This document shows, one piece after another, positions 1 to 52,919 of a stretch of DNA of 64,000 bases. How positions within the stretch are numbered: the first letter of the stretch is position 1; every line of letters starts with the position of its first letter. The stretch is from Flavobacteriales bacterium. GTDB taxonomy: Bacteria; Bacteroidota; Bacteroidia; Flavobacteriales_D; Crocinitomicaceae. Under the pieces are notes generated by a model, which saw only the letters and a program-made list of their open reading frames with translations, was not told where the DNA came from and did no database searches. The translations under genes were made by a program, and so were the position numbers. The stretch is taken from positions 16,754-80,753 of the forward strand of contig JABXHO010000062.1 in NCBI GenBank assembly GCA_013373595.1, given 5' to 3'.

Positions 1-1
1 A

Positions 2-3000
2 TATCCTCGTATCCCAAATGATTTGCCGCAAAAAATTACCAAATCCTCTTTGTCTGGAAATAGGGAATTAAACACCAAGAAGAGGGTTCTGGGATGGTTG
101 GATTTTCCAGAAGGATACATTTTATTCGAAAACGGTGAGGAAATTTGGAATGAAGGGAAGATTATAGATTTACCTGAAACTTGGAAAAAAAGAAGTGATC
201 ATACAACGTTAGATAATTACTACGAATTCAAAGTCCCTCAAAGAATCTGGGTTAACAAATACGGTGAATTTTCCGAAGTAGAAGAAAAAGAGAAAAAACC
301 AGCATGGTTCATCCCATGCCATCTTTTGCTAGATCCGACATCAGGTGTAATATTTGATTCGAAAGTTCATGAGTTCACTAAGCTCATGCGACTTGGAAAT
401 GAAGGTCGAAGCACGGCCACAACGATTACAGCTCTTAGTACAATCAAGGCACTGAACAGCCAGGGGTTGGACCCTAGTCTGCAAAAACTATTGAGTTTTA
501 CAGACAATAGACAAGATGCTTCATTGCAGTCGGGGCACTTCAATGATTTCATTTCAACAGTTCAATTAAGATCTGCCATTTACTATGCACTCAAAAAAAA
601 TCCTGATGGACTAAACGCCAGCAACATAGCTAACCGAACAGCGGAAGAATTAGGTTTAAACGAGATCGAATTCGCTAGAAGACCATCAGAAAACCCAAAA
701 TATCCCGACCTCAAGAATAAGGAAATGCTGGAAGAGTATCTCTTTACGCGAATAGTATATGACCTAAGGCGTGGATGGAGATACAACACTCCCAATCTTG
801 AGCAATGTGCATTATTAGAAATCGATTACAAAACACTTAATCAACTAGCTGCAGATGATGAAGAATGGGAAGATTTTCACCTTCTAAATTCATTAAGCAA
901 TGAAGAACGTAAGGATATATTAAAACAAATCACGACTTATTTCAGAACTTCTTACGCGCTGGATCATAGGAAATTAGAAGATAGTAAAAGAGCAGAACTG
1001 GCCAACGAAATTAAGGATACCTTAAGAACTGATAGTAACTGGTGTTTGGATGAAAATGAAAAAATTGCTGCACCTGTAACACTGATCCCAAGGGGTGTTG
1101 GTAAATTGCCACATGGCGTAGAGACTGCTGGTTGTGGACATCTGAGCGCACTTGGTAAATATATCAAAAGACTGTTCATTAGTCATACTGGCGAATTGCC
1201 GTTTAGAGGTGACGAACTAACCGATTTCATGGTAAGAATATATGAAGTCATGCGCAAAGCTAACCTCCTTCAATCATTTGAAATAAAAGGAAAAAAGGGG
1301 AGTGTAATGGGATACAGGCTTCGGTTAGATCAGGTGATATGGAAAACTGGAGATGAAGCAAACGTTGAAATTGACAAAGTAAGGGTGAATGCGATAAGTG
1401 AAATCAGCATTAAACCGAATGAGTATTTCCAAAACTACTACAAAGTCAATTACTCTAACTTGAACAAAAACATTTACGGAGCGGAACATACTGGACAGCT
1501 TCCTTCTGCAGCAAGGCAAATGCGAGAAACTGCATTTCGTACTGGAGAAATCTCTGCTCTTTTCTGCTCTCCAACAATGGAATTAGGGATTGATATCAGT
1601 AGCATGAACGTAGTACATATGCGAAATGTCCCTCCAGGGCCTAGTAATTACGCGCAAAGAAGTGGGCGTGCGGGAAGAAGTGGACAAACAGCCTTGGTTA
1701 TGACCTATTGCTCAAATACTTCTCCTCACGACAGGAACTATTTTGAAAACTCAACTGAAATGGTAGCTGGTGTTGTGGCCGCGCCAAAATTAGACTTATC
1801 AAATCAGGAACTGATTGAATCCCATTTTAACGCCTACATTTTTATGGAGCTGGGATTATCTCAAGTTAGAACTTCTGTAAGCGAAATACTTGATCTGGAG
1901 CAAACAGAAACTCTTCCAATTAGAGACGATATAAAGGCCTATATTCTGGATCAGATTCAAGAATACAAAGGAGATTGGATCACTCAATTTAACAAAACTC
2001 TAACTGGCATACTGCCTGAATTACAAGATAGCAATTGGTATTCAAGCACCAGACTTGAGCGACAAGCAGTAAATTATTTTACCCTATTGGACAGAAGTTT
2101 CAATCGTTGGAGAGAACTATACAGAAATGCCAATAGACTGATTGAAAAAGCACGAATGATCGTGGATGATCCAACCATTAAATCAGGATCCCAAGAAAAG
2201 AAGAATGCCAATAAAGATCAGTTTTTAGCGCAACGACAACGTGAGTTATTATTGAATGACACTAGAAATCAAAACTCTCAATCCGAATTCTATATTTTTC
2301 GATACCTAGCGGCAGAAGGCTTTTTACCTGGGTATAACTTTACGCGACTACCAGTTAGGACATTTATTGGCACTAGGGATAAGGGTGAATATATCTCAAG
2401 ACCGCGCTTTATTGCACTGAAAGAATTTGGACCAAACAATTTGATCTATCATATGGGCAGTAAATACCGTGTAAACAGAATGATGTTGACCGATTCCGAA
2501 CATTTATTGCATAAAATAAAAATTAGTAAATCCACAGGTTATGCCTTTTTGGATGATGAAGGCATCAGTATTAATAATGATCCCATTACGAACAAAGAAC
2601 TAAAAGGTGATGAAAATGTTGAACTCAATCCCAACTTACTAGAATTGGCAGAAGGTCAAACAAAGTTGATGGAGCGAATTTCTTCTGAAGAAGAAGAACG
2701 AACTTCTTCTGGCTATGATATTGAGCAGTACTTCACATTTTCATCGGGAATTCGAAACACCTTAGCTTGCAAAATCTCTTATGACAACGAGCTTTTACTT
2801 GATCTAAGATATGGACCCTCTGCGCGACTCCTTCAATTAAATAGAAAATGGAGAAGATCACGACCTGGTGACGAAAATGGATATAACATTGGATTAAACA
2901 CTGGCTTCTGGAAAAAACCAATCGAAGATGAAAAAGACGATGAAAAAGACCCTGTAAAAAAGGTACACGTTTACACCACAGATACAGCGGATGTACTTTA

Positions 3001-3793
3001 CATACAACCGGTGAAATCGCTTGGTCTAGATGAAGAAGGTGTAATTACATTGACGTATGCAATGAAACGTGCCATTGAGAAAGTCTTCCAAATTGAAGAA
3101 AGTGAATTAGGAGCATGGAATATGGGGTCTGGAGAGCATGCTAACATTCTACTATACGAAGCTGCGGAAAGTAGTTTAGGAGTTTTGTCAGAACTTATCA
3201 AAAATCCTGACAAGTTGAAAGTAGTTTTTAAAGAAGCATACAAGGTGTGTTATTTTAATCCTGAAAGCTTGGAGGACGATAACCCAAATGCATTACGTGC
3301 CTCATATGATGACCTACTTTCGTATTACAATCAGAGGCACCATTCCATAATTGATCGACACCTCATCAAAAAGCCTCTAGAACTATTGTTCAATGCAACA
3401 ATCGAAGTTGGGAAAAATGAACAAAAGTCTTATCACAAGCAATTTGAATTCCTAAAAGAATCATACGACAAGAGCTCCGTTGCTGAATTGAAGTTTTTAA
3501 ATTACCTGTACAACAAGGGAATTGCTCTTCCCGACAAAGCTCAAGTCAACTTAAAAGATTATTACATTTCAGCTGATTTTGTCTATGAAAATCCTGAAAC
3601 AGAAATACAGACCTTTATTTTTGTGGATGGTTCAGTACACGATAAACCTGAAGTAATTGAAAAAGACAAAAAACAAAGAGACTTATTGGCTGAAGCTGGT
3701 TATGACCTTATTGTGTGGCGCTACGACCAAGAATTAGACGCAATGATTGAAAACAGGAAAGATATTTTCGTAAAAGTGATTGACAATGAGTAA
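2..3793 (+). CDS. DUF1998-type superfamily-2 helicase with C-terminal nuclease-like domain (5' truncated)
   Basis: The reading frame is open to the left window edge, so the start and the first RecA domain (Walker A, DEAH box) lie outside. What is present is the second helicase domain: an FTDNRQDASLQ block about 160 residues after the first TTG in the window, and motif VI in QRSGRAGRSG near residue 545. A DUF1998-like region follows, with NMGSGEHANILL near residue 1040. The last 100 residues contain ADFVY, FVDGSVHD and a GYDLIVWRYD ending, which resemble the Vsr/DUF559-type PD-(D/E)XK fold attached to some large helicases. In DISARM, helicase DrmA and DUF1998 protein DrmB are separate; DruE of Druantia carries both. 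The next gene overlaps by 8 bp, so the two are translationally coupled. Family placement is firm. The role in phage defence is inferred from the neighbours. Confidence 0.85.
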   Translation, partial: YPRIPNDLPQKITKSSLSGNRELNTKKRVLGWLDFPEGYILFENGEEIWNEGKIIDLPETWKKRSDHTTLDNYYEFKVPQRIWVNKYGEFSEVEEKEKKPAWFIPCHLLLDPTSGVIFDSKVHEFTKLMRLGNEGRSTATTITALSTIKALNSQGLDPSLQKLLSFTDNRQDASLQSGHFNDFISTVQLRSAIYYALKKNPDGLNASNIANRTAEELGLNEIEFARRPSENPKYPDLKNKEMLEEYLFTRIVYDLRRGWRYNTPNLEQCALLEIDYKTLNQLAADDEEWEDFHLLNSLSNEERKDILKQITTYFRTSYALDHRKLEDSKRAELANEIKDTLRTDSNWCLDENEKIAAPVTLIPRGVGKLPHGVETAGCGHLSALGKYIKRLFISHTGELPFRGDELTDFMVRIYEVMRKANLLQSFEIKGKKGSVMGYRLRLDQVIWKTGDEANVEIDKVRVNAISEISIKPNEYFQNYYKVNYSNLNKNIYGAEHTGQLPSAARQMRETAFRTGEISALFCSPTMELGIDISSMNVVHMRNVPPGPSNYAQRSGRAGRSGQTALVMTYCSNTSPHDRNYFENSTEMVAGVVAAPKLDLSNQELIESHFNAYIFMELGLSQVRTSVSEILDLEQTETLPIRDDIKAYILDQIQEYKGDWITQFNKTLTGILPELQDSNWYSSTRLERQAVNYFTLLDRSFNRWRELYRNANRLIEKARMIVDDPTIKSGSQEKKNANKDQFLAQRQRELLLNDTRNQNSQSEFYIFRYLAAEGFLPGYNFTRLPVRTFIGTRDKGEYISRPRFIALKEFGPNNLIYHMGSKYRVNRMMLTDSEHLLHKIKISKSTGYAFLDDEGISINNDPITNKELKGDENVELNPNLLELAEGQTKLMERISSEEEERTSSGYDIEQYFTFSSGIRNTLACKISYDNELLLDLRYGPSARLLQLNRKWRRSRPGDENGYNIGLNTGFWKKPIEDEKDDEKDPVKKVHVYTTDTADVLYIQPVKSLGLDEEGVITLTYAMKRAIEKVFQIEESELGAWNMGSGEHANILLYEAAESSLGVLSELIKNPDKLKVVFKEAYKVCYFNPESLEDDNPNALRASYDDLLSYYNQRHHSIIDRHLIKKPLELLFNATIEVGKNEQKSYHKQFEFLKESYDKSSVAELKFLNYLYNKGIALPDKAQVNLKDYYISADFVYENPETEIQTFIFVDGSVHDKPEVIEKDKKQRDLLAEAGYDLIVWRYDQELDAMIENRKDIFVKVIDNE

Positions 3794-6590
3794 GGAACAT
3801 AAGCCAGGAACGTTAGTCAATTATAGAGGTCGGGATTGGATTGTAATGCCTTCTGATGATGCGGAGATACTAAATATCAAACCTCTAGGCGGCTCTGACC
3901 ATGAAATAACAGGCATATATTTACCAATAAGAATTCCTAGACAAGATATTACGAATACAGAAATCAGCTATCCTGATGAAAATGATATCGGTGACTTTGA
4001 ATCTTCCAAACTTTTGTTTCACGCATCACGTTTATCGTTTAGGAATGCTGCGGGTCCGTTTAGATGTATGGGGAAATTATCCTTTCGGCCTAGATCCTAT
4101 CAAGTAATTCCTTTGGTAATGTCCTTAAAGCAAGAAGTAACTCGTTTACTAATTGCTGATGACGTAGGAATCGGTAAAACCATCGAAGCGTTAATGATCA
4201 TTAAAGAAGCAATGGAACGGGGTGAAATAAATCGATTTGCCGTTATTTGCTTGCCTCATTTATGTGAACAATGGAAAAATGAATTGAAAGATAAACTGGA
4301 CATTGAAACTGAGATTATTCGTTCTTCAACGATTGCTGGATTGGAACGAAAAATTCCCGATGATAGGAGTGTGTTCCACCACTACCCTTATCAGGTGATT
4401 TCAATTGATTACGTAAAACAAGCTTCAAAGAAAGGTATCTTTTTAACAGATTGTCCTGAGTTTGTTGTGGTGGATGAAGCACATACCTGTACAATGCCGG
4501 CAGGAGCAAAATCAAAAACACAACAACAACGATACAGTTTACTGCACGACATCTCGGCAGATGAGAAGCGGCATATCCTCTTATTAACAGCAACTCCGCA
4601 TAGTGGAAAAGATGAAGAGTTTCGTTCACTTTTGGGTTTGCTGGATCGCAAATTTGATTCACTCAATTTTGAAAACATTAGCCCTCAACAGCGTAAAGAA
4701 CTCTCAAGGTATTTTGTTCAGCGAAAGCGTGCGAATATTACCAGATGGCTGAACCAAGACACTCCTTTTCCTGAAAGAGAAACAAAAGAAATTGGGTATA
4801 AACTCAACCCCGCATACAAAGACTTTTATACAGAAGTGCTGCGATTTGCCCAAGGACTTACACAAAGAGATGATGATAAAAAAGGACTTACTCATTATTG
4901 GGCTGCTTTAGCATTATTGAGAGGTGTGATGTCTAGCCCTCAAGCAGGACTTGAGATGCTCAAAGCACGTAGGGAAAAGCAATTACTGATTGAAGATACT
5001 CCTGAAATCAACCCTCTGTTTTCTTCAGAAGATCAAGATTCGGATGTTATAGAAACTGATTTAATTGAGCAACTTGAATTACAGTCCGCAGATATAATAA
5101 CCATCGACGGACTAATTGATCAGATCAAAACGTTAATGACTTTAAAGAACGATCGAAAAGCGAAATTCACGGTTGAACAGGTTAAACAATGGATAAGTGA
5201 GGGTGTTTACCCAATCATTTTTTGCCGATATATTGCAACTGCGAATTATTTGGGGTCACTCATAAAAGAAGCACTACCAAATAATGTAAATGTTCAAGCG
5301 ATCACCTCTGAATTCGCGGATGAGCAGCGAAAAGAAATGATTGATTCGATGGGAAAGAGTGATAAACGGGTTTTGATTGCCACGGATTGTCTCTCGGAAG
5401 GAATCAATCTTCAAGATCATTTCACGGCTGTTTTGCATTACGATCTACCCTGGAACCCAAATCGTCTTGAACAACGTGAGGGGCGAGTTGACAGATATGG
5501 CCAGAACGCCGATAAAGTGTTTGCTTACTTGCTTTGGGGCGAAGATAATCCAATTGATAGTGTCGTACTGAAAGTGTTGATCAAGAAAGTGCGGGACATT
5601 CAAAAAGCAACTGGAGTGTCCATCGTTATAGGAGATGAAAATAAGTCCATCATGGATTCAGTATTGAAGGAAGTGCTTTTAGATCCTGAGAAAATTACAT
5701 CGCAAAACACACTAGATTTTGGTGATGAGTTTAATAACACCAACACGATAATCACGAATCAATTAGAACAGGCAAAGGAAAAAGCCGAGAAATTGAGAAG
5801 CATTTTCGCTCATGAAAGCATCGACCCAAAAACCATCGAATCTGAATTAATAGAGGTTGACGAGGTCATTGGGGATGTGAAAACCGTTGAAGATTTCGTC
5901 GTTCAAGCTTGTCGAACATTAGGAGCAACGGCGAAGAAGGAAAAAAATGGATACGTCCTAGACCCGTTCAATTTACCTGATCATTTAAAACGGACGCTTC
6001 CAGATGTGAAATTAATTCCGCTCAGTTTTGAATCCCCAACACCAAGAGGCAGAGTGTACATCGGGCGAAACCATAAATTCGTGGAACAGTTAGCGCAAAT
6101 GATGATGTCCTTGGCGTTTGAACCTAAAAAAGGTGTAGGACATATCGCTCGTGCTGCAGTTATTCAAACAGAGGCCGTGAAATCTCGTACAACTATCGTT
6201 CAATTTAGAGTGCGAAACGTGATCAAAGAAGTGGGAAGAAATCGAGAACTAATTGCTGAAGAAATGTACCTCTGGGGATACAGTGGAAGCAATAGTTCCA
6301 AGAAAGTCTTGGACTACTCCACTTGCAAAACGCTCTTATTAGAAGCTAAAAGTGCTGTTAATATTCAGCCTGATCGCCAGAAGCAATTATTTAGAGAAGT
6401 ATCAGAAACGTACGGTACTTTAAAACATGAAGTTCAAACGCTCTCTGAAGAAAGAGCACTTCATCTAGTTGAATCTCACAGCCGATTTAAAGAGTTAGTT
6501 GGAGGAAGACGATTCGAAGCAGTTCATCCTGTTTTGCCCCCTGATGTGATGGGGATTTATGTGTTAATGCCTAAACCTAAAGCGCTGTAA
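3786..6590 (+). CDS. SNF2-type helicase, DrmD-like
   Basis: This is a superfamily-2 ATPase of about 934 aa. Walker A is in ADDVGIGKT (Lys131), the DEAH box is at residues 230-233, motif III is LLTATPHSG, and motif VI is in EQREGRVDRYGQ near residue 565. This is the SNF2/RapA-like type in which ATP hydrolysis drives movement on double-stranded DNA. The C-terminal 300 residues are family-specific. I chose the ATG at 3786 over an in-frame TTG two codons earlier. It lies inside the end of the upstream helicase gene, and the methylase starts 2 bp after its stop, so the three genes form one transcript. A SNF2 helicase beside a large adenine methylase and a DUF1998 helicase is the class 1 DISARM signature (DrmD, DrmMI, DrmA/B). 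The system assignment is inference. Confidence 0.8.
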   Translation: MSKEHKPGTLVNYRGRDWIVMPSDDAEILNIKPLGGSDHEITGIYLPIRIPRQDITNTEISYPDENDIGDFESSKLLFHASRLSFRNAAGPFRCMGKLSFRPRSYQVIPLVMSLKQEVTRLLIADDVGIGKTIEALMIIKEAMERGEINRFAVICLPHLCEQWKNELKDKLDIETEIIRSSTIAGLERKIPDDRSVFHHYPYQVISIDYVKQASKKGIFLTDCPEFVVVDEAHTCTMPAGAKSKTQQQRYSLLHDISADEKRHILLLTATPHSGKDEEFRSLLGLLDRKFDSLNFENISPQQRKELSRYFVQRKRANITRWLNQDTPFPERETKEIGYKLNPAYKDFYTEVLRFAQGLTQRDDDKKGLTHYWAALALLRGVMSSPQAGLEMLKARREKQLLIEDTPEINPLFSSEDQDSDVIETDLIEQLELQSADIITIDGLIDQIKTLMTLKNDRKAKFTVEQVKQWISEGVYPIIFCRYIATANYLGSLIKEALPNNVNVQAITSEFADEQRKEMIDSMGKSDKRVLIATDCLSEGINLQDHFTAVLHYDLPWNPNRLEQREGRVDRYGQNADKVFAYLLWGEDNPIDSVVLKVLIKKVRDIQKATGVSIVIGDENKSIMDSVLKEVLLDPEKITSQNTLDFGDEFNNTNTIITNQLEQAKEKAEKLRSIFAHESIDPKTIESELIEVDEVIGDVKTVEDFVVQACRTLGATAKKEKNGYVLDPFNLPDHLKRTLPDVKLIPLSFESPTPRGRVYIGRNHKFVEQLAQMMMSLAFEPKKGVGHIARAAVIQTEAVKSRTTIVQFRVRNVIKEVGRNRELIAEEMYLWGYSGSNSSKKVLDYSTCKTLLLEAKSAVNIQPDRQKQLFREVSETYGTLKHEVQTLSEERALHLVESHSRFKELVGGRRFEAVHPVLPPDVMGIYVLMPKPKAL

Positions 6591-6591
6591 T

Positions 6592-9500
6592 ATGAGTTTC
6601 TCAAGCATTAACATACAAGGGAACATCATTTCTTCGGAAATTTTGGATAAAATCCGAACGGAAGAGAAATTCAAGCATCAATCTCCTGAAGCATTTGGTA
6701 TTTCCAGAAACGCGTCTTTGAGAGATGAGATTGGCATGGCGTGGTCCATTGTACGAACGCATTGGCAGGCCTATAAGAAACGTTTGGAAACCCTACCTAA
6801 AGGTGATACTGGAACGTCACTCACTCGCGAGAAATTGATTCTACCTTTACTTACAGAGTTGGGATATGAAGTAAGCATACAGCGAGCTCAACAGATCAAT
6901 GGGAAGTCCTACGCTATAAGTCATAGCGCAAGTAACCGTGATCAATTTCCCATTCACATAATGGGGTTCAATGATAATCTGGACAAACGAAGAGACATTG
7001 GGGGTCCGCGCTTATCGTCTCATGCCTTAGTTCAAGAATACCTCAACAACACAGAGCACTTATACGCTTTAGTAACCAACGGAAGACAACTTAGATTACT
7101 GCGCGATGCTACGCGCTTGGTTCGTATGAGTTATTTGGAATTCGACTTAGAACGAATGTTCGAGGAAGAGCTTTACGCCGATTTCTCAATACTTTTCAGG
7201 GTCTTACACGCAAGTAGAATGCCCGAAAAAATAGACTCGGGACCAGAATCTGTTATCGAATTCTACCACCAGGAAAGCATGGCTTCGGGTACTCGAATTC
7301 GGGAAAAATTGAGTGAAGCCGTTGAAAACTCAATCAAAACACTGGCAAATGGCTTTTTGGAGAACAAACGCAACGAAGAACTAACTCAACTGGTTGAATC
7401 GAAACGTTTGTCAGCAGATGAATACTACATGCAACAGTTGCGGTTGATTTACCGCATTCTATTTCTCATCGTTCTGGAAGAACGAAAATTGGTATATCCC
7501 GAGGAACTCACAGACGAACAACAGCGATTTAGAGATATTTATTACCGCTACTACAGCGTCGAACGTCTACGTAAACTCACAGAAAACCGAGTATATGTTG
7601 ACGAAGATAAATACGATTTATGGGAAAGCCTCAAAACAACATTCCTGTTATTCGAAAAAAAAGAGTTTGGTTCTAAAATTGGTATTCAACCGCTCGGGAG
7701 CGGATTGTTTGATCCTAATGGACTTGGAAAATTAAATGGACTATACTTAAACAACGGTAATTTAATTGAAGTTCTAAAACGACTCACCACATTTATGAGC
7801 GATCAGGGACAATTGGTTCGGGTGAATTACTCAGATTTGGATGTGGAAGAATTTGGTTCTATTTACGAGGGTTTGTTGGAGTATGACCCCGTTGTTGAGA
7901 AAGTTGGATCAACATTCCAATTCAGTTTTGTTCTTGGAGACGGTCGCTCGAGTTCAGGTTCGCACTACACACCTGAAGAATTAGTCAAACCATTGATCAA
8001 ACATTCACTCGATTACATCATTGAAGATAAGTTAAAAGAACCTGATCCTGAAAAAGCTCTACTGTCCATTACAGTTTGTGACGTTGCCTGTGGTTCCGGA
8101 CATATTTTGTTATCCGCTGCGCGAAAAATTGCCACCGAATTAGCGAGTCTTCGTGAAGGTGCTGAACAGCCCTCCCCTACTTACTACCGCGCTGCCATTA
8201 AAGATGTAATACGTCACTGTATTTATGGAGTCGATTTGAACCCATTAGCAGTGGAATTGTGTAAAGTAGCATTATGGTTAGAAGCACACAACCCGAACGA
8301 ACCACTCAACTTTTTAGATCATCACATTAAATGTGGGAATGCTATTGTTGGACTAGCGCATTTTGAGGAATTAAAAAATGGTATTGCCGACGAAGCATTT
8401 AAAACCTTGCCCGGAGACGATAAAAAGGTCGCAGCGGAATTCAGGAAAAGAAACAGTTTAGAACGAAAAACTGGACTAGCTGAAGAAAAATCTGAAGGAC
8501 AACAAATTACCCTAGATACAAATGTTGAACTTGGGAATAGTTTGAAAGGTATTCACAAAGACTTTGCGGAATTTGTAACGCTACCAGAAACAACTCCCGA
8601 AGAAATTACTCGGAAAGAAAAAGCTTATAAAAAACTAACAAACAGCAGAAAGTGGTACCGTCTAAACAATCTCGCTGACTTACAAGTAGCACAGTTTTTT
8701 ATCCCCAAAACAGTGGAAAACAAGCAGCGAATTACCACAGATGCGAAGTACAGAACGTATCTGAATGCTGGAACACAGATTTTGGATCGTGGAACAGCAA
8801 TGGCCATTGCACAAGAAAAACGTTTTTTCCATTGGTTTTTGGAATTTCCGCAGGTGTTTGCGAATGGTGGCTTTGATTGTATTTTGGGGAATCCGCCATT
8901 CCTAAATGGTTTAAAAATTACCGAGTATTTTGGAGATAGCATGAACCTCTATTTGGTAAGTAATTTCAAAGGAGGTTCAAAAAGAGTAGACTTGGCTGCC
9001 TATTTTTTTAGAAGAGATTTTGAGTTAATTAACAGCAGAGGTTTCTTCGCTTTAATAAGTACTAATACAATAAGTCAAGGTAAAACAAGAGAAGGTGGGC
9101 TTGATGTTATTCTTAAAAACGGTGGTACCATAGTATTCGCCAGTAAGTCTGTACAATGGCCAGGAGAAGCATCCGTAGTTGTATCACTTTGCTCAATAGC
9201 CAAAGGACATGAAAGTATAAATAGAGTATTGAACAATAAAAATGTTGAATTTATTAGTTCACTCTTTGAGGATGAAGAAAAACTGGCTAAGCCTTACAAG
9301 CTCTTTAAAAATACAAGTCTATGTTTTCAAGGTTCAAACCCATATGGAAAAGAGTTCGAGATCAATGAAGAAATAATGCTTCACATGTTGTCTATATCCG
9401 AACAGAATAACAATGTGGTCAGACCTTATTTGGGAGGGAAGGAATTAAACTCTCGAGTAACCAATTCTCCTTCTAGATGGATAATAAATTTTCATGAATT

Positions 9501-10641
9501 AGATTTATCCGAAGCAAAAAAATATACTGAACCCTTTAAGCATGTAGAGAGTTTTGTAAAACCTGAAAGGAACAAAAGAGATGCAATTAAATATCCAAGA
9601 TTGGTAAATGAATGGTGGAAGTTCTGGCATTCGAGACAATCTCTTTATGATACCATTGGTAAAAAAAAACTTACTTCTCTCATAGGTCGATCTCGGGTTT
9701 CAAACCTTCACATCATAGATTCCTTCCCACCTGACTGGACATATTCTGAAGCTTTAATTGTGTTTCTTTTTGACGACTATGACTCAACTGGAGTTTTACA
9801 ATCAAATATTCATGAGGCATGGACAACCAAGTATTCTTCAACAATGAAAAATGATGTACGATACATTGTAAGTGATTGTTTTGAAGCATATCCATTTCCA
9901 AATCAAGAGATAAAAGATATTGGCACGAAAACAAAATCTTACTTTAAAAAGCGAAATGAAGTCAAAAGTCATCATCAAATCGGACTAACAAAACTGTATC
10001 GATTATTTCATACCAATGATGAATTGGAGTTAACAATATTAAAATTAAGAGAACTCCACAAAGAAATGGACGAGGCAGTTTTAGCCGCTTATGGTTGGCA
10101 AGACATCGATCTTCGCCATGATTTCTACGAAGTAGATTACCTCCCAGAAAACGACAGAGTTCGTTACACCATTCATCCAGAAGCGCGTAAAGAGGTGCTA
10201 AAACGTCTATTAATGCTGAACCACGAACGCTACGAAGAAGAAATAAAACAAGGACTTCACAAAAAGAAAGATGTACTCGCTTTTTATGCCCAAAGAAATG
10301 AGGATCTTCCTGCAGACGTAAAATTCAGTGATGCGAAAAGCAAAAAACCAGCTAAGAAAAAAGCTAAAACAAACAAGGTCGCAGAACCACAAATCCAATA
10401 TGGTTTATTCGAAGAAACAGCCATCAATGAGATTGGTATCAATAGCAAAGTGCACATCAAAAATTCGAGCGGAGATAACTTTAAATATCACATCCTGAAA
10501 TCAGCCCGAAAAGATGCCTTCTCGGAAGATTACAAACAAATAAACCCCACCACCAGGCTCGCCGAAAATATGCTCGGTAGAAAAACAGGTGATAAATTCC
10601 AGTTTGGTGGTGTTGGTTATGAAATAATTGAAGTGAACTAA
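6592..10641 (+). CDS. Large Eco57I-type N6-adenine DNA methyltransferase, DrmMI-like
   Basis: At 1349 aa this is the size of the big adenine methylases of class 1 DISARM, BREX (PglX) and type IIG enzymes. SAM-binding motif I is in CDVACGSGHILLSA near residue 497, followed by YGVDLNPLAVELCKVALW. The catalytic motif IV is NPPF near residue 766, which specifies adenine N6 methylation. The N-terminal 450 residues are helical and resemble the N-terminal part of type IIG/PglX proteins, but I saw no PD-(D/E)XK motif there. The central and C-terminal parts would include target recognition, ending in a lysine-rich linker near residue 1245 and a small beta domain. It probably marks self DNA for the two upstream helicases. 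Coupling to the SNF2 gene is 1 bp after its stop. Confidence 0.85.
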   Translation: MSFSSINIQGNIISSEILDKIRTEEKFKHQSPEAFGISRNASLRDEIGMAWSIVRTHWQAYKKRLETLPKGDTGTSLTREKLILPLLTELGYEVSIQRAQQINGKSYAISHSASNRDQFPIHIMGFNDNLDKRRDIGGPRLSSHALVQEYLNNTEHLYALVTNGRQLRLLRDATRLVRMSYLEFDLERMFEEELYADFSILFRVLHASRMPEKIDSGPESVIEFYHQESMASGTRIREKLSEAVENSIKTLANGFLENKRNEELTQLVESKRLSADEYYMQQLRLIYRILFLIVLEERKLVYPEELTDEQQRFRDIYYRYYSVERLRKLTENRVYVDEDKYDLWESLKTTFLLFEKKEFGSKIGIQPLGSGLFDPNGLGKLNGLYLNNGNLIEVLKRLTTFMSDQGQLVRVNYSDLDVEEFGSIYEGLLEYDPVVEKVGSTFQFSFVLGDGRSSSGSHYTPEELVKPLIKHSLDYIIEDKLKEPDPEKALLSITVCDVACGSGHILLSAARKIATELASLREGAEQPSPTYYRAAIKDVIRHCIYGVDLNPLAVELCKVALWLEAHNPNEPLNFLDHHIKCGNAIVGLAHFEELKNGIADEAFKTLPGDDKKVAAEFRKRNSLERKTGLAEEKSEGQQITLDTNVELGNSLKGIHKDFAEFVTLPETTPEEITRKEKAYKKLTNSRKWYRLNNLADLQVAQFFIPKTVENKQRITTDAKYRTYLNAGTQILDRGTAMAIAQEKRFFHWFLEFPQVFANGGFDCILGNPPFLNGLKITEYFGDSMNLYLVSNFKGGSKRVDLAAYFFRRDFELINSRGFFALISTNTISQGKTREGGLDVILKNGGTIVFASKSVQWPGEASVVVSLCSIAKGHESINRVLNNKNVEFISSLFEDEEKLAKPYKLFKNTSLCFQGSNPYGKEFEINEEIMLHMLSISEQNNNVVRPYLGGKELNSRVTNSPSRWIINFHELDLSEAKKYTEPFKHVESFVKPERNKRDAIKYPRLVNEWWKFWHSRQSLYDTIGKKKLTSLIGRSRVSNLHIIDSFPPDWTYSEALIVFLFDDYDSTGVLQSNIHEAWTTKYSSTMKNDVRYIVSDCFEAYPFPNQEIKDIGTKTKSYFKKRNEVKSHHQIGLTKLYRLFHTNDELELTILKLRELHKEMDEAVLAAYGWQDIDLRHDFYEVDYLPENDRVRYTIHPEARKEVLKRLLMLNHERYEEEIKQGLHKKKDVLAFYAQRNEDLPADVKFSDAKSKKPAKKKAKTNKVAEPQIQYGLFEETAINEIGINSKVHIKNSSGDNFKYHILKSARKDAFSEDYKQINPTTRLAENMLGRKTGDKFQFGGVGYEIIEVN

Positions 10642-10713
10642 AAACAAAGAATTCCAAAGGAACTCTATTTATTGAAATTAAACGTTAATTTGTATACGTA
10701 AATAAACAAACCG

Positions 10714-11847
10714 ATGGAAGAGGACGAAACAACAAATGATTTGGAACCAAACGTTGAAATTGAAGAGGAAATAATTGATGAAGAAACAGGTTTGATCGAA
10801 AAACCTTTCGATCCAACCTTGATCAATATTGAAACGAAAACGCCGTCTTTAGACACATTGATCAAGCGAATTCGATCTCACTCCGTTGAACTCGATACTG
10901 AAAATTACTTTCAGCGTAAGGATGACCTTTGGGACAAACAACAGCAAAGTCGATTGATTGAATCAATCATTATTCGTTTCCCATTGCCCGCATTTTTTTT
11001 CGATGCCTCGGATGACAATAAGTGGCTTGTCGTAGACGGATTACAGCGCTTGAGTAGTATTCGAAATTTTTGCGTGGACAAGACCCTAAAACTAACGAAC
11101 CTCGAGTTTCTATCTCAGTTCGAAGGAAAATACTGGGATGATTTACCAATGGACATTCAGCGCGTAATTGAAGAGTCCCAAGTGGTGATTTACAAAATCA
11201 TGCCTGGCACTCCAACCGATGTAAAATTCAATATTTTCAAGCGAATCAATACGGGAGGTTTAATATTGGAGGCTCAGGAAATTCGACATGCGTTGTTTCA
11301 AGGTACACCTTCTAAATTCATCGCTGAGCTGGCCAAGAACGAAGCTTTTTTAGAAGCCACTCAATGGAGAATACGCACCGACAGAATGCTAGATCGAGAC
11401 TTTGCCAATCGTTTCTTGAGTTTCTATTTATTCGGATTCGAAAATTACACCGATTTAGATTCGCACATGAGTAAAGCAATGGCTGAATTGTACAATAAAG
11501 ACGAACAGCAACTTGATGCTATTCAAGAAGCCTTTACCAAGGCAATGGATACCTCAAGACTAATATTTGGAAACGAAGCCTTCCGCAAAATTTACAAACC
11601 TTACAAGCGTTTACCTCCCATTAACAAAGCACTATTCGAAGTGCTTTCCACCCAGCTTTCGCTGCTTTCAGATGATGAAAGGGAAGAACTCATTCTACGC
11701 GGGGAAGATTTTAAGGGGGCACTTCGACTACTCCTAGCAGAAGACCCTACATTCTTTGATTCTGTTACAAGTTCAACAGGTACAAGAGGACGTGTTTTAA
11801 CGCGTCATAGAGACATTCTTACAATTATACACGATACTTTATCATGA
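10714..11847 (+). CDS. DUF262 domain protein (ParB-like fold)
   Basis: This 377-aa protein carries a DUF262 domain from about residue 45. The signature DGxQR appears as DGLQR at residues 108-112, followed by a KRINTGG block. DUF262 is the N-terminal part of GmrSD-type modification-dependent nucleases and is found in many defence genes, where the DGQQR motif can bind or hydrolyse nucleotides. No C-terminal HNH (DUF1524) domain is present, so it is not a full GmrSD. An acidic N-terminal tail of 40 residues precedes the domain. The gene begins 72 bp after the methylase and its stop overlaps the next start in an ATGA junction. It is the first gene of a coupled trio with an ATPase and a toxin-like protein. 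Its exact activity cannot be read from sequence. Confidence 0.8.
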   Translation: MEEDETTNDLEPNVEIEEEIIDEETGLIEKPFDPTLINIETKTPSLDTLIKRIRSHSVELDTENYFQRKDDLWDKQQQSRLIESIIIRFPLPAFFFDASDDNKWLVVDGLQRLSSIRNFCVDKTLKLTNLEFLSQFEGKYWDDLPMDIQRVIEESQVVIYKIMPGTPTDVKFNIFKRINTGGLILEAQEIRHALFQGTPSKFIAELAKNEAFLEATQWRIRTDRMLDRDFANRFLSFYLFGFENYTDLDSHMSKAMAELYNKDEQQLDAIQEAFTKAMDTSRLIFGNEAFRKIYKPYKRLPPINKALFEVLSTQLSLLSDDEREELILRGEDFKGALRLLLAEDPTFFDSVTSSTGTRGRVLTRHRDILTIIHDTLS

Positions 11848-12995
11848 TTCAATCAATTGAAATAAAGAACTTCAAATCAATAAAGAAAAAGTACTTTCCT
11901 TTAAAGAATTTGAATATTCTTCTTGGGCTAAATGGAATGGGGAAATCCTCTTTTATTCAGAACCTATTGGCATTTCGCCAGTCACGAGATTTACTAACGG
12001 GACGCTTCGATTTGAATGGAGACTATGTCAATATTGGATCTACAAAAGATGCTTTGTATCAGTATGCTAGCAAAGATCCGTTCTCGGTAAACCTAAAATT
12101 TTCATCGTTGCATTTAAATATGCAATTTAATTACCACCCTGAGGCCGACTATTTTACAACGGACGAAATCGAAGACACGTTCAAGGACGAAAAGGAAGTT
12201 TCAACACAATTTTCAAATGAAGGTCTATTCAATCGTAATTTTCAATACTTAAACGCAAATCGAACTGGTCCAAAATCGATTAATGATAAAAACTACACAC
12301 AAGTTATTGAATTAAGAAACCTTGGGAACGATGGACGATATACTGTTCACTACATTGAATCATTTGGAAATGACACGATTGAATTCAAGAATTTAATCCA
12401 TCCAAAATCAACGGTGAAAGATGAAATCACAGGGAAAGATTTTGTGAATGATACGCTAATTAATCAGGTTAATTTATGGATGGGGGAAATTTCTCCCAAC
12501 GTAAATATTAAAACCACTAGTATTTCCTCTGACAATGTATTGTTAGAATACGTTTTTAAGCAACCCAACTTTGGTAACACAAATCGTTTCAAGCCAGAGA
12601 ACGTTGGTTTTGGCATTAGCTATGGATTACCTGTTGTTGTCGCCTTGTTAAAAGCAAAGCCTGGAGACTTACTGATTATTGAAAATCCTGAATCGCATAT
12701 CCATCCGAGAGGTCAAGCCGAACTTGGAAGAATGATTGCTTTGGCAGCGATGAATAATGTTCAAATCATCGTGGAAACTCATAGCGATCATTTGTTGAAT
12801 GGAATTCGAGTAGCTGTCAAAGAGAAGGAAATAGATAAGGATAAAGTGAAATTATTTTATTTTGAAAAGGTTATTGAAACGAGTGAGCAATATGCTAAAA
12901 TAACAGATATTGAAGTTGATGAAAATGGAGAACTCAGCGAATATCCGAAGAATATGCTTGACGAATGGAGCAACCAATTATTTAAACTAATGTAA
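11844..12995 (+). CDS. AAA ATPase with DUF3696-type C terminus
   Basis: This is a 383-aa ABC/OLD-like ATPase. It opens with the typical SIEIKNFKSIKK strand, has Walker A in GLNGMGKSS (residues 28-36), Walker B as LLIIENPESHIHP near residue 276, and the H-loop in VETHSDHLLNGI near residue 312. The last 40 residues (IEVDENGELSEYP, ending in MLDEW) match the DUF3696 tail. Related ATPases act as sensors that hold or license a partner effector, as in PARIS (AriA) and in OLD/Gabija systems. Its start overlaps the DUF262 stop by 4 bp and the next gene starts 2 bp after its stop. The likely role is an ATP-dependent sensor or scaffold for the YoeB-fusion protein. That role is inference. Confidence 0.85.
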   Translation: MIQSIEIKNFKSIKKKYFPLKNLNILLGLNGMGKSSFIQNLLAFRQSRDLLTGRFDLNGDYVNIGSTKDALYQYASKDPFSVNLKFSSLHLNMQFNYHPEADYFTTDEIEDTFKDEKEVSTQFSNEGLFNRNFQYLNANRTGPKSINDKNYTQVIELRNLGNDGRYTVHYIESFGNDTIEFKNLIHPKSTVKDEITGKDFVNDTLINQVNLWMGEISPNVNIKTTSISSDNVLLEYVFKQPNFGNTNRFKPENVGFGISYGLPVVVALLKAKPGDLLIIENPESHIHPRGQAELGRMIALAAMNNVQIIVETHSDHLLNGIRVAVKEKEIDKDKVKLFYFEKVIETSEQYAKITDIEVDENGELSEYPKNMLDEWSNQLFKLM

Positions 12996-12997
12996 AG

Positions 12998-13825
12998 ATG
13001 GAAGTTTTCTTCAATGAATTATCGACACTTCCAAAATTCGATTCAATTACCTCCGCACGAAGTAAAATCATTGAATTACTTGAAACGATGAAACAATTGA
13101 AGACGCAAGAATTCAATGTTCTTAGAGCTCCTAATAATTTCTTTGCCATTGAATTATTTTCGGGATACAGTTTTGCCAATTTCGTTCATGACCCAGAAGT
13201 GAGTCCTATCTTAAGAATACTACTTCAATCTATCGTGAAAAATCCATTTATCCCGAACGAAAACTCATATGAAGCAGAGGTCTTTGTTCTAAGTAAATTT
13301 GAAACACTCAATTGTACAGGTAAACAAACATCTCCAGAAGGTATTGCAGTTGCATATGTAAACAGCTCCCCTACACTAAGTCTTGCGAATTGCAACCAAT
13401 TTTCCCAACCGGTTCTGGAGTTAACCGTAGTAAATGAACTGAATGAATCTTCAATTGAAGAGGTTCAGAATTTTTGGAACCCCGATAGTGTCAGAACCTG
13501 GGCCGACGGTCTCATTGGTCAATTAAAACTTGACTCAAAGGAAAACATATTAAAGATCTTTCCAGAGAATAAATACGAATTCGACTCTAGAGCCATGAAT
13601 GAGTTTTTAGATTGGCACCGAGATGATCCAAGGTATCAAAAAAGAATAAGAGAATTGATTCTTGATATTAATGAGTTCCCATTTGTTGGAGGTAAGGGGC
13701 TTACTGAAACCTTAGGTGGCGGAAAAGCATCCAAGCGCATTGTTAAAAAAGACAGAGTTGTTTACACATATACTCAATCAAAAATTACCATTCACAGTTG
13801 TAAAGGTCATTATGACGATACATGA
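12998..13825 (+). CDS. Putative effector: novel N-terminal domain fused to a YoeB/Txe-type RNase toxin domain
   Basis: This protein has 275 aa. Residues 1-190 match nothing I recognise. Residues 195-275 align end to end with E. coli YoeB, a ribosome-dependent mRNA endonuclease. MNEFLDWH corresponds to the YoeB N-terminal helix, KRIRELILDINEFPF to the long helix, and the terminal SCKGHY to SCRYHY. The four catalytic positions of YoeB (Glu46, Arg65, His83, Tyr84) are matched by Glu237, Arg253, His271 and Tyr272. Free YoeB is 84 aa and paired with the antitoxin YefM. Here there is no antitoxin gene; the toxin is fused to a larger protein and sits 2 bp after an ATPase gene. I infer that it cleaves RNA after activation by the ATPase and DUF262 proteins, perhaps as abortive infection. 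The domain call is strong. The system role is a prediction. Confidence 0.75.
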   Translation: MEVFFNELSTLPKFDSITSARSKIIELLETMKQLKTQEFNVLRAPNNFFAIELFSGYSFANFVHDPEVSPILRILLQSIVKNPFIPNENSYEAEVFVLSKFETLNCTGKQTSPEGIAVAYVNSSPTLSLANCNQFSQPVLELTVVNELNESSIEEVQNFWNPDSVRTWADGLIGQLKLDSKENILKIFPENKYEFDSRAMNEFLDWHRDDPRYQKRIRELILDINEFPFVGGKGLTETLGGGKASKRIVKKDRVVYTYTQSKITIHSCKGHYDDT

Positions 13826-13978: not shown

Positions 13979-14025
13979 GTGGTCCCACATGGGCTCGAAC
14001 CATGGACCCCCTGATTATGAGTCAG
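13979..14025 (-). repeat. Left attachment repeat: displaced tRNA 3' end
   Basis: These 47 bp are identical to 52,845-52,891 and in the same orientation. They hold the anticodon loop, variable loop, T arm and 3' acceptor strand of the CAU tRNA, but the D arm and 5' acceptor are missing and the sequence diverges after 14,025. It cannot be a working tRNA. It is the target-site copy left at the far end when an element integrates into a tRNA gene. The integrase gene starts 138 bp away. Confidence 0.92.
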
Positions 14026-14162: not shown

Positions 14163-15458
14163 ATGGCTAAAGTTAAACTAAAACTCGATCAACGCAAAAA
14201 TTGTATGCGCCCAGATGGGACATTTCCGTTGGTTTTATCTTTATCTCATAATTCGAAAACTCGAACCATTTCTCTCAAACAGTATCTTCAACCAAAGCAA
14301 TGGGATCAAAGTAACTTAACACCAATTGATATTCCCTATCACAAAGCTATTGGTATTCGACTTAGAGCTAAACTCTCCAAAGCAGAATCTCTTATTGAAG
14401 AATTGAAGTTTGAACTATCCCAAATGAGTATTTCTGTCTTAAAAACAAAAATTGAGGCGGAACTCTTATCCAATGAATCAACGACTGTTTCGCAAAAGAC
14501 CAGTTTTGTCACACGAAAAACGAATACAGCATCACTCACTGATTATTCTATGCGAAAGGTTCAGCGCTTTCGAGATTCGTCTAAACATGGAAGTGCCGAT
14601 GCTATTGAAACAGCCATCCGATCATTGGAACGATTTACGAATACTCATAATATCAAGTTTGCTGAAATTGATCTTACATTTTTAAAAGACTTTTGCGCGT
14701 TCTGCTATGCTCGCGGAAATAAACCGAACACCGTTGGAGCGTACTTGCGACAGGTAAAAGCATTGTATAACGAAGCTATTGAAGAGGGTTTGATCAACGA
14801 AGAGGTTTACCCGTTCCGAAAATTCAAAATGCCCAAAAGTCCAAAGACGAAAAATCGAGCGTTGAGAATAACTGATATTGATAAACTACGCTCATTGGAT
14901 TTGAAGCCTCACTCGGCAATCTGGAATGCACGCAATTATTTCCTATTCATGTTTAACAATATGGGGTTAAACTTTATTGATCTCGTTCAGTTGAAGAAAT
15001 CGCAATTGATTCAAACGGAGTATGATTCCGATGGAAATCTCATTTCTGGTCGCATTCGTTACAGTAGAAGTAAAACTCAAAAGGCTTTCTCTATAAAAAT
15101 GACTGACGAGTCGATTTCAATTCTGAACAGTTACGAAATAGATACAAAGAATGAAGATGATTTTTTGTTTCCCATGAGATACGAAAACTCTGAACAAGGC
15201 AGAAAACGGTATCGTCAACAGAGAAAACGTGTAAATCGAAAAATGAGAGAATTAGCGAAATTGGCACACATCGATGAGGAACTCACGACTTATTATGCAA
15301 GACACTCTTGGGCGACAATTGCAAAACGAAAGATGATTCCAGTGTCTTTGATTTCAGAAGGACTCGGCCACTCCAATCTCAAAACAACTCAGATCTATTT
15401 GGATTCCTTTGATGATGATGCTTTGGATGATGCGAATGCGAGTATTGTTGAATCTTAA
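14163..15458 (+). CDS. int: Tyrosine recombinase (island integrase)
   Basis: This 431-aa protein has the Bacteroidota integrase layout: N-terminal arm-binding domain (residues 1-90), SAM-like core-binding domain (about 120-215) and C-terminal catalytic domain. Catalytic features seen are the beta-hairpin lysine region (SRSKTQKAF), Arg380 in YYARHSW, His403 in GHSNLKTTQ and the nucleophile Tyr412. At the usual first arginine the sequence is NNMGLNFIDL, with no Arg in the standard slot; IntDOT of CTnDOT also lacks it. The first His of the HxxR motif is a Tyr. The gene sits 138 bp inside the left attachment repeat and ends 4 bp into the convergent T9SS gene. It should recombine the two 47-bp repeats to excise the island. 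Confidence 0.93.
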   Translation: MAKVKLKLDQRKNCMRPDGTFPLVLSLSHNSKTRTISLKQYLQPKQWDQSNLTPIDIPYHKAIGIRLRAKLSKAESLIEELKFELSQMSISVLKTKIEAELLSNESTTVSQKTSFVTRKTNTASLTDYSMRKVQRFRDSSKHGSADAIETAIRSLERFTNTHNIKFAEIDLTFLKDFCAFCYARGNKPNTVGAYLRQVKALYNEAIEEGLINEEVYPFRKFKMPKSPKTKNRALRITDIDKLRSLDLKPHSAIWNARNYFLFMFNNMGLNFIDLVQLKKSQLIQTEYDSDGNLISGRIRYSRSKTQKAFSIKMTDESISILNSYEIDTKNEDDFLFPMRYENSEQGRKRYRQQRKRVNRKMRELAKLAHIDEELTTYYARHSWATIAKRKMIPVSLISEGLGHSNLKTTQIYLDSFDDDALDDANASIVES

Positions 15459-52844: not shown

Positions 52845-52891
52845 GTGGTCCCACATGGGCTCGAACCATGGACCCCCTGATTATGAGTCAG
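52845..52891 (-). repeat. Right attachment repeat inside the tRNA gene
   Basis: This copy of the 47-bp direct repeat covers the tRNA from the anticodon stem to the 3' end, so the tRNA is regenerated by the element after integration. The crossover lies somewhere within these 47 bp, most likely in the anticodon or T arm. Confidence 0.92.
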
Positions 52892-52919
52892 GTGCTCTAA
52901 CCAGCTGAGCTATAGGACC
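52846..52919 (-). tRNA. tRNA with CAU anticodon (Met elongator or Ile2)
   Basis: 74 nt, full cloverleaf: acceptor GGTCCTA paired with TGGGACC, D arm GCTCAGCTGGTTAGAGC, anticodon arm CCTGA-CTCATAA-TCAGG, T arm with GTTCGAGCC. CCA is not encoded. CAU may be elongator methionine or, if the wobble C becomes lysidine, AUA-reading isoleucine; the sequence alone does not let me decide. It is the integration target of the island. Confidence 0.95.

Follow-up and report, generated by a model that had tools for sequence, protein, structure and literature searches.

We describe a three-gene operon within a 64,000-nucleotide stretch of DNA from a Flavobacteriales bacterium (GCA_013373595.1, contig JABXHO010000062.1, positions 16,754-80,753, forward strand), referred to below as the window. 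The trio is probably a Menshen (NsnABC) locus with a YoeB-type RNase tail at the end of its effector, NsnC, and it likely aborts phage infection. The Nsn gene names are those of the PADLOC models, and we take them to denote Menshen. The features on which this reading rests are as follows.

10714..11847, + strand: nsnA (ptuX), DUF262/GmrSD_N ParB-like NTPase, 377 amino acids
11844..12995, + strand: nsnB (ptuY), ABC/OLD-type ATPase with a DUF3696 C-terminus, 383 amino acids
12998..13825, + strand: nsnC (ptuZ), effector gene, 275 amino acids, head plus YoeB tail
12998..13570, + strand: NsnC head, residues 1-191, kin to the heads of NsnC proteins with other tails
13580..13813, + strand: YoeB domain, NsnC residues 195-272, from Pfam, a PDB sequence match and fold comparison
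13706..13708, + strand: codon of Glu237, a YoeB catalytic position
13754..13756, + strand: codon of Arg253, a YoeB catalytic position
13808..13813, + strand: codons of His271 and Tyr272, YoeB catalytic positions

The genes lie in the order A-B-C in one operon, and the coordinates bear out the coupling described in the original prediction, a 4-bp overlap between nsnA and nsnB and a 2-bp gap between nsnB and nsnC. NsnA matches its PADLOC model with an E-value of 3.4e-123 (model positions 19-383 of 385, protein residues 10-376 of 377), and NsnB matches its own with an E-value of 1.8e-109 and 365 bits (model positions 1-343 of 345), the runner-up model for NsnB scoring 118 bits among the best 25 of 110 matches. 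A Pfam scan of NsnA returned GmrSD_N and a sub-threshold PSD4 only, with no GmrSD_C or DUF1524 nuclease domain; its translation contains the DGLQR motif, whose role is treated in a review (PMC10952713). In an alignment of 19 NsnB proteins the segments GLNGMGKS, ENPE and ETHSDH are mostly invariant.

The third protein is recognised by its head. Seven PADLOC NsnC models match its first 143-200 residues, the best (PDLC03895, E-value 4.9e-22) being confined to residues 1-165, and no PADLOC NsnC model matches the YoeB tail. The order of helices and strands in the head is nearly identical to that in the head of an NsnC with another kind of tail. The trio is like Menshen in its gene order and in having all three components, NsnA and NsnB being matched over their full length and NsnC by its head; it is unlike Menshen in that the NsnC tail is a YoeB domain, which lies outside every matching NsnC model. 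Equating Nsn with Menshen agrees with the same review, in which Menshen pairs a DUF262 gene with an OLD-type partner; citing Millman et al. 2022, the review reports that Menshen resistance is abolished when the DUF262 gene is lost (PMC10952713).

The make-up has also been published under another name. Gerdes 2025 (mBio, PMC11980606) shows 17 operons of ptuXYZ, in which a DUF262 gene without DUF1524 is joined by a PtuA-like ATPase and by a third protein whose PIN-like head, itself without catalysis, precedes a YoeB-related tail. The window trio shares a first gene with DUF262 and no DUF1524, an ATPase gene, and a third protein that ends in a YoeB-like BECR domain. Within what that text describes we saw no difference in make-up, the two being equated by make-up rather than by sequence comparison. 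On these grounds the names ptuXYZ and Menshen cover a single kind of locus. Gerdes 2025 nowhere uses the word 'Menshen' (0 occurrences), and of the literature matches listed for the names ptuXYZ, PtuZ and PtuY only that paper was relevant. The original prediction knew of no named system with this make-up; in this it was mistaken, since both the PADLOC NsnA, NsnB and NsnC models and the description of ptuXYZ fit. The window trio therefore adds to a known kind of system, and the observation itself is sound.

The tail has the fold of YoeB and a complete Glu/Arg/His/Tyr active site, and the predicted YoeB-like C-terminal domain with Glu237, Arg253, His271 and Tyr272 is confirmed. The NCBIfam model TIGR02116 also finds it with an E-value of 1.7e-09, yet at 37.7 bits the match falls below the cut-off of 51.8. 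A search with NsnC returned 37 proteins, each with PF06769. One is the window's own; the remaining 36 share 42-71% identity with the query, and in them the four residues are invariant. A second clade, reached from locus L061, holds 158 proteins, and each of the best 120 has PF06769 as well as E, R, H and Y at the catalytic positions (each 120/120). Homologues that lacked the domain or the residues would have told against a YoeB effector; none was seen among the 36 of the first clade or the 120 listed for the second. A third clade, reached from locus L003, has a related head and a different tail. It yielded 243 matches, and none of the best 120 has a Pfam domain. The tail of the L003 protein (9106-9960, P0158; residues 185-284) contains DHGK and TTGRN stretches and is modelled with a predicted local distance difference test score (pLDDT) of 95.9; it has no clear PDB match and resembles the C-termini of CARF_DUF2103 in PADLOC (E-value 5.8e-13).

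We propose the following mechanism. NsnA, the ParB-like NTPase, and NsnB, the ABC/OLD-type ATPase, would together form a sensor-switch that detects phage. The NsnC head may dock the effector on NsnA and NsnB and, taking the part of a YefM antitoxin, silence the tail. On a signal of infection the YoeB tail would be freed to enter the ribosomal A site, where it could cut mRNA in the ribosome, and translation of both host and phage would stop. An abortive-infection-type effector, as first suggested for this locus, is supported, as are the operon, the domains and the catalytic residues.

How common is the YoeB tail among such trios? Our first sample comprised 27 trios: that of the window, six on public contigs and 20 recovered by searching genomes. 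For 21 of them the third gene was scanned with Pfam; for the remaining six (L060, L069 and L075, which closely copy scanned genes, and L114-L116) the tail was assessed solely with a YoeB-tail profile, which matched none of them. Tail classes other than YoeB are our own labels, set by eye. Five of the 27 trios have a YoeB tail (the window, L004, L005, L007 and L061). A second sample of 11 further loci, from which two duplicates had been dropped, gave one more by Pfam (L134), and two of the 11 (L135 and L141) have no recognisable third gene.

The effector gene appears to be exchangeable. The clearest example is the set of loci L004-L007, in which pairwise identity is 88-94% for NsnB and 70-95% for NsnA, while three unlike forms of nsnC are present: L004 and L005 have a clade-I YoeB form, L007 a clade-II YoeB form and L006 another tail. 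The NsnC proteins of L004 and L005 are 89% identical, as against 24-29% between classes. Between classes, DNA identity stops 5-27 bp into nsnC and resumes no more than 10 bp from the stop codon, continuing for about 3 kb. Because identity breaks at the start of nsnC and returns at its stop codon, the open reading frame (ORF) was apparently swapped as a single unit, as judged from these alignments; and because NsnA identity falls at two levels, the data suggest that nsnA is at times exchanged too. The window resembles this case, in that its NsnB groups with L067, L002 and L003, all of them other-tailed (100/100 in the tree), and its NsnC head with YoeB clade I (100/99); the two groupings are incongruent. 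Heads and tails are largely co-inherited, and a single clade uniting the heads of both YoeB clades is not rejected by the approximately unbiased test (p-AU 0.35). Variation of NsnC tails is very likely in print already, judging by the title of Li et al. 2025 on Menshen domain polymorphism (NAR gkaf357), and for this reason we claim no priority for it.

Trios of this type are patchily distributed, as expected for defence genes. Of 395 genomes from the phylum, 68 have NsnA-family matches at an E-value of 1e-20 or better, although other DUF262 proteins are among the weaker matches, and two, the window's included, have a full-length YoeB-tailed NsnC (at most six candidates were scored per genome). 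In the order, NsnB is found in four of 399 genomes at an E-value of 1e-25; in the class, its profile matches 16 of 395 at 1e-50. Among 240 genomes of the family, the window NsnC is found in one, namely its own.

The neighbourhood of the trio raises another explanation. Upstream, and on the same strand, the window holds three further genes.

1..3793, + strand: 3' part of a 1759-amino-acid helicase that begins upstream of the window; best PADLOC match DruE (E-value 1.2e-90)
3780..6590, + strand: SNF2-type helicase of DpdE/DrmD type (DpdE E-value 7.9e-165, DrmD 1.8e-84)
6592..10641, + strand: Eco57I/MmeI-like DNA methyltransferase of DrmMI type (DrmMI E-value 5.8e-220), outside the trio

With an HNH protein further upstream, called by eye and without a PADLOC match at 1e-5, these form a restriction-like run on one strand (HNH protein, DruE-like helicase, DpdE/DrmD-like helicase, methyltransferase; G000:C123:13665-20546, locus L008/L109, plus window 1-10641), and nsnA starts 72 bp past the end of the methyltransferase. 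The C-terminus of the methyltransferase (residues 1279-1348) is GreA/GreB C-terminal-like (PF01272, E-value 1.4e-06, 28.6 bits against a cut-off of 26.9), an end that seems unusual for such an enzyme. Beyond the run, on the - strand of L008 (523-13434), are type III-B-like CRISPR genes including Cas10, Cmr1 and Cas1; this region also has a separate reverse transcriptase and an 833-amino-acid DHH-CorA fusion.

It is conceivable, though we consider it unlikely, that the trio serves restriction-modification operons as an accessory and sets off NsnC once restriction fails or is blocked, in the way that PrrC acts for EcoprrI. Menshen trios would then be plug-in guards in a slot between DNA-reading and DNA-cutting genes (hsdS-nsnABC-hsdR), their NTPase and ATPase watching restriction and releasing a swappable toxin, here a YoeB RNase, if a phage disables it. 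Several relatives are arranged in this way. In seven of 37 (L004-L007, L072, L137 and L139) hsdR directly follows the trio, separated from nsnC by 2-9 bp or overlapping it, and in all of these except L004 hsdS also precedes it. The order is hsdM-hsdS-nsnABC-hsdR in L005, L006 and L007; L072 and L137 have one or two extra small genes after hsdS, and L139 also has extra small genes. In L005 and L139 hsdR is read as two ORFs. In L004 the start of hsdR is duplicated on both sides of nsnABC (2054-2180 and 5453-5579; 127 bp, 86%), possibly an insertion scar before hsdR; its gene further upstream has no Pfam match. The position directly before nsnA is taken by a methylase or restriction gene in L060, L062, L066 and L070, by part of an MmeI-type gene in L069 and by HsdS in L067 and L115. 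As a precedent, PrrC sits in a type IC operon and is activated when Stp of phage T4 inhibits it, according to two papers (PMC3874165, PMC12707154).

The counts speak less clearly. One fixed rule was applied throughout, a restriction gene on the same strand and at most four genes away. It picked out 11 of 26 loci of sample 1, two of 11 of sample 2 and two of 20 controls, which were DUF262 loci without a close NsnB (four of them, L055-L058, do have a distant NsnB-like gene). The pooled enrichment is not significant (13/37 against 2/20, Fisher p 0.059), sample 2 alone does not replicate it (p 0.60), and type I genes alone give 9/37 against 1/20 (p 0.08). Since the queries of the counting rule were taken partly from sample 1, the count is biased in favour of that sample. 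Many Menshen loci lack a neighbouring restriction gene, and the trio can therefore stand alone; at the window, type I embedding is absent, the preceding gene being the DrmMI-type methyltransferase. In three of the controls, L055, L056 and L057, a DrmD-like helicase recurs beside an NsnA-like DUF262 protein and a distant NsnB-like ATPase; these may make up a further three-gene system.

That the locus is instead an addiction-type toxin-antitoxin module, with NsnA and NsnB as the antitoxin and maintained by addiction rather than by phage defence, we regard as improbable. A YoeB tail with a complete active site and three tightly coupled genes are what such a module would offer. However, the trio has no YefM-like gene, in line with the original claim that a classical antitoxin is lacking; upstream of nsnC is nsnB, and downstream are only ORFs of at most 47 amino acids before an integrase gene. 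Two large NTPases are, to our knowledge, not the make-up of known YoeB antitoxins. The locus also adjoins the restriction-like run, with CRISPR-Cas genes beyond. Finally, anti-phage activity is reported for the family (PMC10952713).

Similarly improbable is a RelE-superfamily tail that has another target or no enzymatic role, with NsnA and NsnB doing the antiviral work. In favour of this reading, the fold neighbours of the tail include ParE gyrase inhibitors, and the other NsnC tail sets compared by profile are unrelated to it. Against this reading, the four catalytic residues are invariant in both clades (in the second, among the 120 matches listed), the expectation if catalysis is selected.

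Two further observations concern mobility. An exact 44-bp direct repeat (window 13982-14025 and 52848-52891), of which only two copies occur in the genome (35-base core, up to two mismatches), consists of a 3' fragment of tRNA-Met beside the integrase gene (14163-15458) and part of an intact tRNA-Met (52845-52919). Such a pair suggests that an element some 39 kb long has integrated here, with the trio just outside its left end. Much of the implied element is filled by four very large - strand ORFs (15455-39606; 1278-2781 amino acids), the first of them repetitive and surface-protein-like by eye. In L061, 64-bp direct repeats that are 97% identical (6261-6324 and 10661-10724) bracket nsnABC together with the gene of a DUF4143 ATPase, an arrangement that looks like a mobile cassette.

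Returning to the trio as a Menshen locus with a YoeB-type effector, this work adds the link by make-up between ptuXYZ and Menshen, the conservation of the active site in two clades, the exchange of nsnC as a gene and the recurrence of the trio in type I operons. Through this link the YoeB-tailed loci gain a family for which anti-phage activity is reported, and Menshen gains an effector of well-known chemistry. That nsnC is replaced among loci otherwise so alike suggests the interface of NsnAB with NsnC as the site of effector exchange.

Comparison with other systems places the trio further. It shares with YefM-YoeB the fold and catalytic residues of the toxin domain; it differs in having no YefM gene and in that the toxin is a C-terminal fusion, which runs three residues past the Tyr that ends the matched PDB chains. 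Cami1, a CARF-RelE protein, is activated by cyclic tetra-adenylate (cA4) in type III CRISPR (PMC11229360), whereas NsnC has no CARF domain found by Pfam and has two NTPase partners. The PARIS-like pairing of ATPase and effector first suggested holds only as a distant resemblance of the ATPase, which belongs to the same broad class as that of PARIS (AriAB; AriA gives 72 bits on NsnB, against 365 for the NsnB model); closer kinship does not. The PARIS effector differs from NsnC, and in PADLOC no AriB partner was seen, the third protein giving NsnC matches only, NsnA none to AriB, and NsnB being read over its best 25 of 110. We know of no DUF262 partner in PARIS. PrrC of EcoprrI is similar in that some relatives of the trio lie inside type I restriction operons, and in having a translation-stopping RNase effector, predicted in our case. 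If the trio did guard restriction, a modular three-gene guard would join PrrC and PARIS. PrrC, however, is one protein that cuts tRNA-Lys (PMC3874165, PMC12707154), whereas the trio consists of three genes and its effector is predicted to cut mRNA in a ribosome-dependent way.
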